A stretch of 64,000 bases of DNA, taken from positions 1 to 64,000 of the forward strand of contig DYJN01000014.1 in NCBI GenBank assembly GCA_020723085.1, written 5' to 3'. The DNA comes from Arcobacter sp. (lineage in GTDB: Bacteria; Acidobacteriota; Terriglobia; Bryobacterales; Bryobacteraceae). The notes under the pieces are model-generated. The model was not told where the DNA came from. It did no database searches and worked only from the letters and a program-made list of their open reading frames with translations. Below are positions 31,030 to 36,919 of the stretch, one piece after another; within the stretch, counting starts at the first letter, position 1, and the number at the start of each line of letters is the position of its first letter. A program made the position numbers and the translations under genes.

Positions 31030-32277
31030 ATGACCGGGGCGTTCGAGTATCGCGGCGGCGCGCTGCACTGCGAGCAGGTGAATCTGGCCGAAGTGGCCGG
31101 GCGCGCAGGCACTCCGTGCTACGTGTATTCCGCCGCCGCGCTGCGCCGGGCCTTCCGCTTGTTCGAAGAGAGGCTGGCCGGCGCGCCGCATCTGGTCTGT
31201 TTCGCGGTCAAGGCCAACGGGAACCTCGCCGTGCTCCGGCTGCTGGCCGAGGCGGGCGCCGGGTTCGACATCGTCAGCGGCGGCGAGCTGTTCCGGGTGC
31301 TGAAAGCCGGCGCGGATCCGGAGAAGGTGGTTTTCTCGGGCGTCGGCAAGACGCCGGAAGAGATCGAGGCCGCCTTGCAGGCGGGCATTCACTCCTTCAA
31401 CTGCGAGAGCGAGGCCGAGCTGCTGCTGCTGAGCTCGCTGGCGCAGCGGATGGGCAGGACCGCCCGCGCGGCCATCCGTGTCAATCCGGACGTGGACGCC
31501 GCCACGCACCCTTACATCTCCACCGGCCTCAAGCGGCATAAGTTCGGCATCGACATCGCCGGGGCGGAAGACCTCTACGCGCGCGCCGCCGCGCTGCCGG
31601 GGCTTGCGCTGGAGGGCGCGAGCTGCCACATCGGCTCGCAACTGCTCGACGTGGCGCCGCTGATCGAGGCGGCTGAGCGCATGGGCGCGCTGGTGGAACG
31701 GCTCCGGGCGCGGGGCATCGGGTTGCGCTTTCTGGATCTGGGCGGCGGGCTTGGCGTGCCCTACCGCAAGGAGGACCCGTGGCCTGATGTGACGCGCTAT
31801 CTGGCTGCCGTGCGCGGGATCGCGGAGCGGCTCCATGTGGAGCTCCTGCTCGAGCCGGGGCGCTTCATCGCCGGACCCGCCGGCGTGCTGCTGTCACGGG
31901 TGCTGTACCGGAAGAGCGGCAGCGGCAAGGAATTCCTGATCGTCGACGCCTCCATGACCGAACTGATCCGCCCCGCGCTCTATGAAGCCCACCATGAGAT
32001 GCTGCCGCTGCGGCGGACGGAAAGAGGCACGCTGGTCGCCGACGTCGTCGGTCCGGTGTGCGAGAGCAGCGACTTTCTGGCGGAAGAGCGGGAGATTGAG
32101 AACCTCCTGCCGGGCGATTATCTGGCGGTGATGACGGCGGGCGCGTACGGATTCGTCATGGCGTCGAACTACAACGCGCGGCCGCGGCCGTGCGAAGTCC
32201 TGGTGGACGGCGCCACATGGCGCATCGTGCGCCGGCGTGAATGCCACGAAGATCTGGTGCGCGGCGAAGAGGCGTAA
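31030..32277 (+). CDS. lysA: Diaminopimelate decarboxylase
   Basis: 415 residues of a fold-III PLP decarboxylase. PLP-lysine is Lys61 in CFAVKANGN. Other motifs are GFDIVSGGELFRVLKAG, GLKRHKFGID, CHIGSQLLD, GGGLGVPY, EPGRFIAGPAG and the active-site CESSDFLA. It converts meso-diaminopimelate to lysine, the last step of that pathway. ATG 31030 has GGGAAGG just upstream; a longer frame reaches back but overlaps the phosphatase gene in another frame. It ends ten bases before the convergent TlpA-like gene. Confidence 0.93.
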   Translation: MTGAFEYRGGALHCEQVNLAEVAGRAGTPCYVYSAAALRRAFRLFEERLAGAPHLVCFAVKANGNLAVLRLLAEAGAGFDIVSGGELFRVLKAGADPEKVVFSGVGKTPEEIEAALQAGIHSFNCESEAELLLLSSLAQRMGRTARAAIRVNPDVDAATHPYISTGLKRHKFGIDIAGAEDLYARAAALPGLALEGASCHIGSQLLDVAPLIEAAERMGALVERLRARGIGLRFLDLGGGLGVPYRKEDPWPDVTRYLAAVRGIAERLHVELLLEPGRFIAGPAGVLLSRVLYRKSGSGKEFLIVDASMTELIRPALYEAHHEMLPLRRTERGTLVADVVGPVCESSDFLAEEREIENLLPGDYLAVMTAGAYGFVMASNYNARPRPCEVLVDGATWRIVRRRECHEDLVRGEEA

Positions 32278-32286
32278 ACGCGCGCG

Positions 32287-32760
32287 TCAGAGCAGCTTCT
32301 TCAGGACGGCTTCCAGTTGCTTCAGGTTCACCTCGCCGGGGAAGACGTGCGCTTTCCTGCCCGCGCGGTCGTAGACCACCGTGAAGGGCAGACCGCCGGA
32401 CCACCGTGGGTCGACCTGCGAGATGAACTTCTCGTCGCTCTTGAAGTTCTTGATGAAGGTGGGCGGGGGCGCCTTAGTCCTGTCGAGGAACTCGGCTACC
32501 GCCTTGCGGTCCCTCTCTTCGTCGATGGCGACAGTGACGAATTCGAGGCCTTTGGCGCGGTACTTCCCCACGAGCGCGACGAGATCCGGCATCTCCTTGC
32601 GGCAGGGAGCGCACCACGTTGCCCAGAAGTTCACCACCAGAACCTTGCCTCTGGAGGAGGCGACAAGGCGGCTGTAGCCGGACTCGTCGATCGGCTTCAG
32701 GTTCGCCGCCGAGGCGAGTCCGGCTGCCAGCGCCAGCAGAACGGGAAGCAGTTGTTTCAT
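32287..32760 (-). CDS. Thioredoxin-like (TlpA/ResA-type) secreted protein
   Basis: 157 residues with a signal peptide (LLPVLLALAAGLASA). The redox motif is WCAPC, with Cys50 and Cys53 in VVNFWATWCAPCRKEMPDL; DPRWSGGLPFTVVYDRAG carries the cis-proline. It should act in the periplasm, reducing or oxidising disulfides. Its start overlaps the stop of the redoxin gene (ATGA), so the minus-strand operon 34315-32287 is probably co-translated. Confidence 0.88.
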   Translation of the reverse strand: MKQLLPVLLALAAGLASAANLKPIDESGYSRLVASSRGKVLVVNFWATWCAPCRKEMPDLVALVGKYRAKGLEFVTVAIDEERDRKAVAEFLDRTKAPPPTFIKNFKSDEKFISQVDPRWSGGLPFTVVYDRAGRKAHVFPGEVNLKQLEAVLKKLL

Positions 32761-33308
32761 GTGCTTTTCTTGACCCTCTTGATGGTGCAGCCGAATGCCT
32801 TCGTCTCGGTGACAGGCAGCGGCTTGCCTGCCAGCGCCGCACCGAGCACATCTTTCAGGTAGGTCTTCGTCACCTTGTCTGCGGGACGGGAATCATCGAT
32901 GGCGCCACGATAGATCACCTCGGAGTTCTCCCCGATGACGAACACATGCGGCGTAAACTCCGCCCCAAAACGGTCCGCTTCCACGTTGTTCGCATCCTTC
33001 AACACGTGGAACGGGAAACCGTTTTTGCGGGCATGCGCGGCGGCATCGGCGGAGGACTCCGTCGAGTTCGCGTTCAGGAACACAAACTGCACGCCGCGCG
33101 GGCTGAACTCGTTGTACAGCGCCTTCATCCGCTCGTTGTAATCGTTCGAGATGGGGCACTGCGTGGAGATGAAGATCACTGCGGTGACCTTCCCCGAAGT
33201 CTGGACCTCCACGGGCTTGCCGTCGAGATCGGTTGCTTTGATGGACTCCACCTTGCCCGGCGCGCCGAGCAGGAACAGGGCGGTTGCGAATGCGGCGATC
33301 GCCGTCAT
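32757..33308 (-). CDS. Single-cysteine redoxin-like exported protein
   Basis: 183 residues with an N-terminal leader (MTAIAAFATALFLLGAPGKV). An AhpC/TSA-like thioredoxin fold carries the motif ISTQCPISNDYNERM (Cys51). No second cysteine follows at +3, so it resembles the CPIS group of peroxiredoxin-like proteins often found in Acidobacteria. Also visible are FVFLNANSTESS and TPHVFVIGENSEVIYRGAID. Probably periplasmic. It overlaps both neighbours by four bases. Confidence 0.82.
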   Translation of the reverse strand: MTAIAAFATALFLLGAPGKVESIKATDLDGKPVEVQTSGKVTAVIFISTQCPISNDYNERMKALYNEFSPRGVQFVFLNANSTESSADAAAHARKNGFPFHVLKDANNVEADRFGAEFTPHVFVIGENSEVIYRGAIDDSRPADKVTKTYLKDVLGAALAGKPLPVTETKAFGCTIKRVKKST

Positions 33309-33715
33309 GGCTTGCTTCCCTCTTTCCCTTCTGACTTGGATGATTCGCGTTTCCGTTCCAGTTTCAGGTTCACCACGGCGTCGAGCCGGGTGTCGAAGAT
33401 CGTGAGCCTCCGCTTCGGGCTGACCATATCGTGGTACGTGGCGGTGAGCTCGTAATCAATGCTGGTGGACAGATTCTGGAACTGGTACTTCCCATCCTCG
33501 TGGGTGATGAATGACCGGATCTGAAGCGTCTTGAGGTTCTTGAGCTGCACCACGGCGCCAGAAGCCGGATTGCCGTCTGGCAGCGTCACCACGCCGGATA
33601 CGTTCCGGATGTTCGGATCCCTGCCTTTTTCCTTCTTCTGGTTGGTCCACTGCATGCCAGAGACGAGCAGGGCAAAGAGAGGAAGAAGAAGCGTGATTCG
33701 GCGTGTCAGAGTCAT
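33305..33715 (-). CDS. Exported carboxypeptidase-regulatory-like (beta-sandwich) protein
   Basis: 136 residues. The signal peptide ITLLLPLFALLVSGMQW is followed by one CarboxypepD_reg-like domain (VSGVVTLPDGNPASGAVVQL, then FITHEDGKYQFQNLSTSIDYEL). The C-terminal tail is charged (ERKRESSKSEGKEGSKP). Domains of this kind bind protein or polysaccharide in the envelope and precede TonB-dependent receptors. It overlaps the next start (ATGA). Confidence 0.78.
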   Translation of the reverse strand: MTLTRRITLLLPLFALLVSGMQWTNQKKEKGRDPNIRNVSGVVTLPDGNPASGAVVQLKNLKTLQIRSFITHEDGKYQFQNLSTSIDYELTATYHDMVSPKRRLTIFDTRLDAVVNLKLERKRESSKSEGKEGSKP

Positions 33716-34107
33716 TTGTCGGCGCTCCCAGCAGGCTTCAGGGTCAGGTAGACATCTAGGCGTTCAGGACCGCCGGAAAGTTTCACAATCCGCTCTTCCG
33801 GCAGAAATCCCTTAGCCTTGGCGGTTACTCTATATTCTGCCGGACCGGGCGGAACCTGGAAAGAAAATTCGCCCCGCGCGTCCGCCCGCGTCAGGGCGGG
33901 CTTCGGCTTCCTGCGCCCCGGCGCAGGCGATAACAGAAGCAGCTCCACCTCAGCGCCGGGCAGCGCGAAGCCGGGATCGCGAAACACGGTTCCGGCGATC
34001 ACGGCGGGTTCGGGTTTTTGCCCAGCCAGGCCCGTCAGAGCGAGGCAGAGTGCCAGGAAGAGCCGGAAGAGGCTAGCGCCAGTCTTCCTCGTCCTCTTCC
34101 TCCTCAT
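33712..34107 (-). CDS. Second exported carboxypeptidase-regulatory-like protein
   Basis: 131 residues. ATG 34107 is preferred: AGGAGG lies upstream and the frame opens with basic residues and a leader (LFRLFLALCLALTGLAG). The domain reads VIAGTVFRDPGFALPGAEVE, ADARGEFSFQVPPGPAEYRV and LSGGPERLDVYLTL. The first 35 bases overlap the end of the upstream acidic zinc-ribbon gene in another frame; a longer version of this frame further upstream would be an Arg/Ser/Thr shadow of that gene's acidic codons. Probably periplasmic and coupled to the redoxin genes. Confidence 0.7.
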   Translation of the reverse strand: MRRKRTRKTGASLFRLFLALCLALTGLAGQKPEPAVIAGTVFRDPGFALPGAEVELLLLSPAPGRRKPKPALTRADARGEFSFQVPPGPAEYRVTAKAKGFLPEERIVKLSGGPERLDVYLTLKPAGSADK

Positions 34108-34315
34108 CCTCTTCTTCCTCCTCGTCGATCTCTTCCTCGTCCTCGTCGAAGTCCTCGTCGAGGTCGAAGTCCTCGTCCTCAGGCTCGAGTTCGAGCGGAT
34201 CGAGAGAAACCACCGTAAAACTTCGCCCGCACTCGCTGCAAAGCAGGGTTTCGCCCTCGGCCAGTTCGTCCTCGTCCTCTTCAAAGGGGGCGCCGCACTC
34301 GGGACAATCGATCAT
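34073..34315 (-). CDS. LysW-like acidic zinc-ribbon protein
   Basis: 80 residues. A zinc ribbon (MIDCPECG and LLCSECG) is followed by FTVVSLDPLELEPE, which closely matches amino-group carrier proteins LysW/ArgW. It then adds a run of about 35 mostly Asp/Glu residues and ends EEDWR. Classic LysW ends EDWGE, where the last Glu carries the growing amino-acid intermediate; here that Glu is absent. It leads the operon of redoxin and CarboxypepD-like genes. A LysX/ArgX ligase was not found. The LysW resemblance is seen in the sequence; the role is unknown. Confidence 0.72.
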   Translation of the reverse strand: MIDCPECGAPFEEDEDELAEGETLLCSECGRSFTVVSLDPLELEPEDEDFDLDEDFDEDEEEIDEEEEEDEEEEDEEDWR

Positions 34316-34404: not shown

Positions 34405-34788
34405 CTAGCGGAGAGCCGAAAGCCGCTCCCGCTGGTCTTCTTCGGCGACGGCCGCACTGTGCAGGACCAGGATGGCGTAAGGGACCGTAACGAGAACCTT
34501 GTCCATGTCCTCCCAGGTGGAGATCATGCGGCGGACGTGGCAGCCGGCGAGGCGGATCACCCAGGGATCGCTAAGCTGGCGGCCGCGCTCGGAGGCGAGT
34601 TTCAGCAGATCGGGGTGCCGGAGAGCCACCACCAGCTCGCGCTTCTCTCCGCCGCAGGAGACGTAGTACTTGCAGTCAATGGCATCGGCGTGGCGGATGG
34701 AGATGGCGTTCTGCTGCCAGCGAAACTCGACGTCCCACGTCCTGCCGAACGGGTCCTGCACCTGAAAATGCCGGAGATCCTGGCTCAT
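34405..34788 (-). CDS. Conserved-looking hypothetical protein
   Basis: 127 residues, soluble and beta/alpha mixed. Visible blocks are FQVQDPFGRTWDVEFRWQQN, AIDCKYYVSCG and KVLVTVPYAILVLHSAAVAE. ATG 34788 has GGTAGG upstream; an ATG four codons earlier is possible. It lies alone between folE and the acidic zinc-ribbon gene, and the 34316-34404 space after it contains nothing obvious. No family recognised. Confidence 0.6.
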   Translation of the reverse strand: MSQDLRHFQVQDPFGRTWDVEFRWQQNAISIRHADAIDCKYYVSCGGEKRELVVALRHPDLLKLASERGRQLSDPWVIRLAGCHVRRMISTWEDMDKVLVTVPYAILVLHSAAVAEEDQRERLSALR

Positions 34789-34837
34789 GCTACCTACCAT
34801 CGTAGCCGAACCGCGGACGGCGCCTCCGCGCAGAGAC

Positions 34838-35458
34838 CTACCAGCCCGCCAGCCCCTGATGGCGCACGTGCGACAGAAACTCGTCGCGCGTTTCCTTCCG
34901 GTGGCGGAACTCGCCCAGCATGGCTGAGGAGGTGGTCGAGCTATGCTGTTTCTCCACGCCGCGCATCATCATGCAGAAATGACGCGCTTCCGTGATGACC
35001 GCCACGCCCTGCGGATCCAGAACCTCCTGGATGCAGGCGGCGATCTGCTGCGTCATGCGCTCCTGCACCTGCAGCCGCCGCGCAAACACGTCCACCAGCC
35101 TGGGGATCTTGCTGAGCCCGATAATCTTGTTCTTGGGGATATAGGCCACGTGCGCCCTGCCATAGAAGGGCAGCAGGTGGTGCTCGCAGAGGGAGAAGAA
35201 CTCGATGTCCTTCACCACCACCATCTCGTCGCAACGCTCGTTAAAGATGGCGCCATTGATGATTTTGTGGATGTCCGCCGTGTAGCCGCTCGTCAGATAG
35301 CGTAACGCTTTCTCCGAGCGCATGGGCGTGGAAAGCAATCCCTCGCGCGAGGGATCCTCGCCGAGCGCGCGCAGGATTTCCCTCATGTGCTCGGCGATGG
35401 GGCCCTCTTCCCGGCGGTGCTCAAGAATCTTGATGGCGGCTTTCGATGAGGATTTCAT
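34838..35458 (-). CDS. folE: GTP cyclohydrolase I
   Basis: 206 residues of the FolE family: [13 protein letters not shown], the zinc and catalytic motif [38 protein letters not shown] and [16 protein letters not shown], with Cys and His ligands all present. It converts GTP to 7,8-dihydroneopterin triphosphate, the precursor for folate, biopterin or queuosine. Its start overlaps the end of the PTPS gene by 38 bases, so this three-gene cluster is one pterin operon with two tandem PTPS paralogues that act on FolE's product. Confidence 0.94.
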
Positions 35459-35936
35459 TTTGCGTGGCTTCCTGCGTGTCCGTGTTCGCCACGAACACTT
35501 GAAAGATGTTCCTGGGCGTTTCCCAGATTCTTACCTTCTCGAGCCTCACGGGGCGCCCGCGGAACCAGTGCGGCCATGCTTCGGCCAGCCGCTTCGCCGC
35601 AGCGAGTGCCAGGTTCTCCGTCGTCGGCACGATTGCGGCGAACTCCGCCAGATCGAGGTTCAGATTGCGGCGGTCCACCTGATCCAGCCAGACGCGCCGG
35701 ACGAAGTGATCGAGCATGTCGAGCGGCGCCAGCCGTCCCTCAGCCGGGTCCACGGTCCCCACAAGGGTGATCTCCATGAGGTAGTCATGTCCGTGTCCGT
35801 ACGGGTTGTTGCACTTGCCGAACACTTCCCGGTTCCGCTCGGCAGACAGGAGATCCGTGTGCAGCCTGTGGGAGGCCGAGAAGCGGTAGCGGCGCCCGAG
35901 GCGCACCTCGGGCTGATGGGAATCAGCGCCCCGCAT
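35421..35936 (-). CDS. 6-pyruvoyl-tetrahydropterin synthase/QueD family protein with catalytic Cys
   Basis: 171 residues. Zinc ligands are His23 (SASHRLHT) and His48/His50 in [10 protein letters not shown], and Cys42 lies in [11 protein letters not shown], the C-x5-HGH spacing of PTPS-II/biopterin-type enzymes. Also visible are [20 protein letters not shown] and [13 protein letters not shown]. The likely reaction is dihydroneopterin triphosphate to 6-pyruvoyl-tetrahydropterin, or a carboxy-tetrahydropterin. ATG 35936 gives the family N terminus. It overlaps both neighbouring genes. Confidence 0.85.
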
Positions 35937-36333
35937 ATTCCACGTACAGATCCTCGGTTTCGTAGAGGCGCACAGTCCGGATCCGCGCAGCGCCCCCGTG
36001 GAATCGCGGCTCGAGCCGCCGCCAGATCTCCACGGCAAGGTTCTCGGTGGTCGGCACAATGCGGTCGAAAGGAGGGACTTCCGCGTTGAGGTGGCGATGA
36101 TCCATGGGTCCGACGACTTCCTGCTCGAGAATCGCCTTGACCTCCTTCAGGTCCACCACCATCCCCGTCGCCGGGTCGGGGTCGCCTTCCAGCGTCACTT
36201 CCAGAACATAGTTGTGGCCATGACCGCGCGGATTGGCCTCATCGCCGTACACGGCGCGGTTTTCGGCTTCCGGCCAGTCGGGGCGCCGGCACGTGTGGGA
36301 GGCGGAAAACTCGATTCGGCGTGTCAGCAGCAT
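35923..36333 (-). CDS. PTPS-III-like pterin lyase (Glu replaces catalytic Cys)
   Basis: 136 residues. Zinc His13 (FSASHTC) and His38/His40 are present, but the aligned Cys is Glu32 in GDEANPRGHGHNY. In Plasmodium and some bacteria this Glu-type PTPS cleaves the side chain of dihydroneopterin triphosphate to 6-hydroxymethyldihydropterin and so replaces FolB in folate synthesis (established). ATG 36333 gives MLLTRRIEFSASH; a longer upstream reading is not supported. It is the first gene of the pterin operon, divergent from the TlpA-like gene 65 bases away. Confidence 0.85.
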   Translation of the reverse strand: MLLTRRIEFSASHTCRRPDWPEAENRAVYGDEANPRGHGHNYVLEVTLEGDPDPATGMVVDLKEVKAILEQEVVGPMDHRHLNAEVPPFDRIVPTTENLAVEIWRRLEPRFHGGAARIRTVRLYETEDLYVEYAGR

Positions 36334-36397
36334 TGTCCCCGTCAGAAGGTAGGATGCGGCTCCCCCTTCCCTCGATACAATTATAAGTTCCAGCCCT

Positions 36398-36919
36398 ATG
36401 ACCAAACCCAAGCTGCTCGTGTCCATTCAAACGGCGGCGGCGCTGATCCTGGTGGCGCTGTGCTTCATCGTGGCCGATTCGCTGCGCGAAAAGGTGGTCG
36501 GGGTGGGCGACCGCGCTCCCTCATTCGCCGTCGTCACAGACGACCGGCGGCAGATCTCCACTCAGGAATTCGGCGGCAAAGTGCTGGTGCTGAACTTCTG
36601 GGCCACGTGGTGTCCGCCGTGCATCGACGAGATCCCGTCGCTGGATGCCATGGCGAGGCAGCTCGCCCCAAAAGGCGTGGTCGTGCTGGGCATCAGCGTG
36701 GACCGCAACGCTGCGGCGTACGAGCGGTTCCTCAAGCAGGCGCGCATCGGCTTCCTCACGGCGCGCGATCCGGAGGCGCGCATCAGTTCCAGCTATGGAA
36801 CGTTCAAGTACCCCGAAACTTATGTGATCGACAGCCGCGGGCGCGTGCGCCAGAAGCATATCGGGCCGCGCAACTGGCTGGAGCCGGAGATCCTTCAAAG
36901 CATCGAAGCCCTGCTGTAG
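36398..36919 (+). CDS. TlpA/ResA-like membrane-anchored thioredoxin
   Basis: 173 residues. One N-terminal helix (LVSIQTAAALILVALCFIVA) anchors the protein. The thioredoxin motif is WCPPC (Cys72, Cys75) in VLNFWATWCPPCIDEIPSLD. The C-terminal cis-proline region reads YGTFKYPETYVIDSRGRV. Such proteins reduce cytochrome-c or other envelope disulfides. It opens a plus-strand run of genes with glcD and a UroD-family gene. There is no helix-turn-helix or other regulatory feature. Confidence 0.88.
   Translation: MTKPKLLVSIQTAAALILVALCFIVADSLREKVVGVGDRAPSFAVVTDDRRQISTQEFGGKVLVLNFWATWCPPCIDEIPSLDAMARQLAPKGVVVLGISVDRNAAAYERFLKQARIGFLTARDPEARISSSYGTFKYPETYVIDSRGRVRQKHIGPRNWLEPEILQSIEALL

Follow-up and report, generated by a model that had tools for sequence, protein, structure and literature searches.

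The W gene, encoded on the minus strand of the 64,000-nucleotide stretch of DNA that was analysed (the window), very probably specifies a paralogue of LysW that is independent of LysX and does not carry amino groups. It heads a compact gene unit that continues with CpReg1 and CpReg2, which encode small, basic, secreted proteins of β-sandwich fold, and the reading tentatively favoured here is that W is an acidic zinc-ribbon docking or holding protein coupled to the making of these basic secreted partners. In the window the genes run in one direction, in the order W, CpReg1, CpReg2, redoxin and TlpA, with 4-nt overlaps from CpReg1 on. The features of the region are as follows.

34073–34315, minus strand: W, a LysW-like zinc ribbon (residues 1–46) and a polyacidic tail (residues 47–80) ending EEDWR.
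34073–34107, minus strand: the 35-nt overlap of W and CpReg1, in which the codons of the W acidic tail double as the start and basic n-region of CpReg1.
33712–34107, minus strand: CpReg1, a secreted CarboxypepD_reg-like protein (PF13620, 37.1 bits) with the signal peptide MRRKRTRKTGASLFRLFLALCLALTGLAGQ.
33305–33715, minus strand: CpReg2, a secreted transthyretin-like β-sandwich protein and the most conserved partner, overlapping CpReg1 by 4 nt.
32757–33308, minus strand: AhpC/TSA redoxin, an optional operon member with a 4-nt overlap.
32287–32760, minus strand: TlpA/ResA-like thioredoxin, an optional operon member with a 4-nt overlap.
34405–34800, minus strand: a conserved 131-aa protein upstream of W, with no Pfam or NCBIfam family.

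W is an 80-residue protein with an ATG start, shortly 5′ of which lies a GAGGTG, and its sequence runs from MIDCPECGAPFEEDEDELAEGETLLCSECGRSFTVVSLDPLELEPED to EEDWR. The ribbon is of the C4 type, VVSLDPLELEPE, and is followed by ∼ 34 residues, nearly all D or E, that lead to the EEDWR end. Against PF21344 (Zn_ribbon_LysW, the LysW globular domain) W scores 32.7 bits, above the cut-off of 27, and this family matches all 26 aligned W members; the score against the lysW equivalog TIGR01206 is 36.8 bits, below its cut-off of 53.2. The W open reading frame is real and the PF21344 match is not due to chance. With the ribbon also kept in relatives, the preliminary description of W as a LysW-like zinc ribbon with an acidic tail holds. 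The AlphaFold model has a pLDDT of 87–90 over residues 1–40 and of 53–58 in the tail. The top six Foldseek matches are all LysW chains, several of them in complexes with LysX/ArgX, LysY or LysZ, and the probability is 1.00 for the first five, with no E-value passing 0.001. A profile search of PDB sequences matched W to Thermus thermophilus LysW at 3.3e-12. W is predicted to bind zinc, and it may plausibly bind metal or a partner.

W shares with LysW/ArgW (TIGR01206, PF21344) the zinc-ribbon fold, the four Cys residues and a DPLELEP segment, as well as, in Bryobacteraceae, an EDW near the C-terminus. However, the window protein lacks the terminal GE and carries ∼ 25 extra, mostly acidic residues. 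The acceptor in LysW/ArgW is the C-terminal Glu, an E54A change giving an arginine auxotroph, and experiments in Natrinema showed that the homologous carrier cannot do without its C-terminal Glu (PMC10433800). None of the 26 aligned W members ends in Glu, and the absence of this residue had been correctly recognized beforehand. Nor did a profile search find LysX/ArgX over cut-off in the window genome or in 40 relatives: the best TIGR02144 score in the window genome is 30.5 bits against a cut-off of 275.6, whereas in the control for this search LysX was over cut-off in 4 of 14 genomes. A diaminopimelate-route lysA (TIGR01048, 483.7 bits) ends at 32277, 1.8 kb from W, which together with the lack of a LysX over cut-off upholds the earlier proposal that a lysine AAA pathway is not required.

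LysX is over cut-off in 34 of the 297 genomes of the phylum sample and has a neighbouring LysW gene at 17 of the 20 loci that were examined; the GSWGR motif is present in LysX of all 20. These LysX-linked LysW proteins are 53–61 aa long, carry a net charge of –10 to –17, and every one has EDWGE or EDWGQ at its C-terminus. Some genomes (G293, G081, G147 and G253, among others) carry a separate acidic-tail copy in addition to a LysX-linked LysW. In a tree of the ribbon core, which has only 48 columns, the 14 LysX-linked rows form a clan of their own apart from the other 122 rows (support 99/93), and across these 48 columns W does not group with them. W therefore differs from the LysX-linked kind in lacking LysX, in belonging to a separate clan and in its gene context, and it is the ending, tail, ligase and phylogeny together that tell the two kinds apart. 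This distinction is of practical consequence, as W-type proteins match LysW domain models and could mislead as evidence of a lysine pathway that these bacteria lack.

With neither an acceptor Glu nor the ligase present, it is unlikely that W carries amino groups. The notion of a ‘repurposed carrier’ put forward earlier survives in that W is a repurposed LysW-type protein, but not as regards carriage. A true carrier could still be envisaged, with an unknown ligase charging either its C-terminus or some other acidic residue, and the retention of EDW in Bryobacteraceae and of the LysW fold would fit this; yet the residue that is the acceptor in LysW/ArgW (PMC10433800) is absent, no LysX is over cut-off in the genome and lysA is present, which makes this the most improbable of the readings considered.

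A W homologue is present in 26 of 41 genomes (the window genome and 25 of 40 relatives), with one match each. Invariant in the alignment of these 26 members are the four Cys residues, G21, V35 and P40. The tail varies in length while its acidity is kept, net charge ranging from –25 to –48, and a Trp lies within the last two residues in 24 of the 26, usually as DW[RKHQ]. The C-terminal EDWR, the conservation of which had been raised in the preliminary description, is retained as EDW(R/K/H) in Bryobacteraceae, whereas in Terriglobales the protein has GDYS, EEE or the like at its end; the EDW ending is therefore a feature of the family Bryobacteraceae and not of the whole group. The named W loci come from Bryobacteraceae/Bryobacterales, Terriglobales/Acidobacteriaceae and Candidatus Acidiferrales MAGs. 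One contig titled ‘MAG: Bordetella parapertussis’ (L096) bears an acidobacterial W gene set, and this title looks wrong. W was not found in the 14 genomes of a sister family, nor in two Terriglobales genomes, G281 and G321, in which CpReg2 is present. Sampling was confined to the phylum itself (Acidobacteriota, 297 genomes), and the W family may be wider. A literature search, with subscription journals mostly outside its reach, returned no description of an acidic-tail LysW paralogue.

The most consistent neighbour of W is CpReg2, which the window shares with 74 of the 77 named loci. With coordinates paired by hand, it is adjacent downstream of W in all 26 W-bearing genomes of the close sample and adjacent to W in 30 of 31 W-bearing Terriglobia of the phylum sample, the exception being G161, where a TatA-like ORF comes after W. 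At 1e-15, CpReg2 was detected in 33 of 33 sampled Terriglobia and in 0 of 264 other genomes. Its model is a β-sandwich, with a pLDDT of ∼ 97 in the core, that matches transthyretin-like domains of carboxypeptidases and related folds; matches of the CpReg proteins to NikL were far below cut-off. Further out, the neighbours of W differ by clade and include FolE/PTPS, DinB, a rhomboid/M28 peptidase with an S1 protein, pyruvate dehydrogenase E1 and UppS/NUDIX. As genes both upstream and downstream change between clades, the W–CpReg2 pair is kept while its surroundings change. No promoter or terminator was picked up by pattern scans of the operon's surroundings, a result of little weight in an organism of this kind.

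The linkage is strong, though not obligate. In the W-less sister family CpReg2 is found in 13 of 14 genomes, and CpReg1 is present too in all ten loci read. Strict co-occurrence of W and CpReg was accordingly rejected and, since CpReg persists in this family and CpReg2 in G281 and G321, W is not essential to CpReg1 and CpReg2. In the loci of the sister family (L182–L191) the CpReg1–CpReg2 pair is often accompanied by a TlpA-like gene.

W had initially been tied to the redoxin operon. This link was abandoned: the redoxin and TlpA genes are absent from many W loci, whereas a secreted carboxypeptidase-regulatory-like gene is nearly always adjacent, and the redoxin, being optional across loci, was rejected as a conserved partner. 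Another reading is that W is a redox-regulated holdase. Ruc (Rv0991c), an FmdB-type redox-regulated chaperone, consists of a four-Cys zinc ribbon and a disordered hydrophilic tail, and on oxidation it releases zinc and becomes a chaperone (PMC7448276). W resembles it in being a small zinc ribbon with a disordered hydrophilic tail, the architecture described for Ruc (PMC7448276), and redoxin and TlpA genes come next in part of the W loci. However, the W ribbon belongs to another family by HMM score (11.2 bits against a cut-off of 31.3 for TIGR02605 FmdB, and 13.9 against 34.4 for PF09723), its tail is uniformly acidic, no chaperone genes were seen near W and the redoxins are not conserved partners. 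A Ruc-like mode of action, with zinc release on oxidation producing a chaperone, is therefore considered unlikely.

The CpReg1 ATG at 34107 lies 35 nt inside W in the +1 frame, and no ATG, GTG or TTG occurs between this start and the end of the hydrophobic core. The GAN codons of the W tail read in +1 as ANG, which gives M, K, R or T and suits a signal-peptide start and n-region. An overlap of the same kind is common to all five genus members (the window and the other four), and a signal-peptide-like ORF start at least 11 nt inside W was counted in 31 of 77 named loci, 30 of the 31 in +1, by a start-finding rule that is the author's own heuristic. Because the W tail codons so often overlap the CpReg1 start, the W and CpReg genes are probably translationally coupled. 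It might be argued that W serves chiefly as a translational device, the GAN-rich codons of its tail providing both a Shine–Dalgarno-like tract and the start of the CpReg1 signal peptide, so that the protein itself matters little. The +1 overlap in 30 named loci and the M, K, R or T yielded by GAN codons would agree with this, but the individual residues of the W ribbon are conserved and W is kept also at loci where CpReg1 is missing or does not overlap it, and such an explanation appears improbable.

The tentative docking and holding model, placed ahead of the Ruc-like, metal-buffer, translational-device and hidden-carrier readings, draws on the predicted fold, the tail, the absence of LysX, the separate clan, the adjacency, the overlap and a charge complementarity. 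The pI exceeds 8 in 70 of 75 CpReg2 and 29 of 32 CpReg1 proteins, and the median charge of W is –37; the two redoxin groups are also basic, and a basic pI is common among secreted proteins. In the model the LysW globular domain is a module that docks onto partner proteins, a role that W would retain, and the added, disordered acidic tail would bind a basic partner. The likeliest client would be the freshly made basic CpReg preprotein, which zinc-bound W, coupled to its synthesis and in physical contact with it, might hold in the cytoplasm before export.

Outside Terriglobia the relatives of W adjoin larE and not CpReg. Acidic-tail relatives lie within 1.2 kb of larE (TIGR00268), by hand-paired coordinates, in 26 sampled genomes of nine non-Terriglobia families, often with a 4-nt overlap. 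These paralogues share with W the ribbon, the acidic tail, the lack of an adjoining LysX and, often, the position of first of two overlapping genes; they differ in that the partner is the sulfur transferase LarE and in that some tails end DWDE or DWEDE. Acidic-tail paralogues directly upstream of larE are seen at L054:1501–2552, L056:1501–2555, L209:1815–2794, L212:1954–3008 and similar sites, with no LysX at the site. At a third group of acidic-tail LysW paralogues (L202–L205, L210, L059, L065 and L074) no LysX, larE or CpReg2 was found nearby.

The larE linkage would accord with a metal buffer or metallochaperone, in which ribbon and tail bind Zn, Ni or Fe for delivery to an enzyme and the linkage elsewhere may stem from an ancestral involvement in making the nickel-pincer cofactor; larE and larC are, moreover, both present in the window genome. 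Against this, larE of the window genome lies on another contig than W, all 14 genomes of the W-less sister family have larE, and larE was not found in two W-bearing genomes, G113 and G161. The idea that LarE needs W within Terriglobia was rejected on account of the W-less family, and the metal-buffer reading is regarded as quite doubtful.

A CxxC...C pattern is present both in the larE-linked LarE proteins and in LarE of the window genome, as in the Thermotoga [4Fe-4S] LarE, which its authors likened to TtuA; the partner of TtuA, TtuB, ends in a thiocarboxylate (PMC9283937). By this analogy, the linkage suggests that LysW-fold proteins may partner ATP-using enzymes other than LysX. A broader and more speculative proposal than the docking model is that the LysW fold has been repurposed across Acidobacteriota as a non-carrier partner: of LarE in several classes, where it might carry sulfur or a metal in the way TtuB serves TtuA, whereas in Terriglobia it would be a cytoplasmic partner dedicated to a class-specific secreted β-sandwich pair, with an acidic tail that shares its DNA with a signal peptide. 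Two conserved partnerships, with CpReg in Terriglobia and with LarE elsewhere, would give the LysW fold a role beyond amino-group carriage.

Upstream of W in the window, the 131-aa protein encoded at 34405–34800 lies between folE and W; it has relatives in 25 other loci and is replaced by other genes in other clades. Beyond it, positions 34838–36426 hold two 6-pyruvoyl-tetrahydropterin-synthase-like genes and then folE, with a divergent ResA/TlpA-like gene at 36398. This block is conserved with W in part of Bryobacteraceae.
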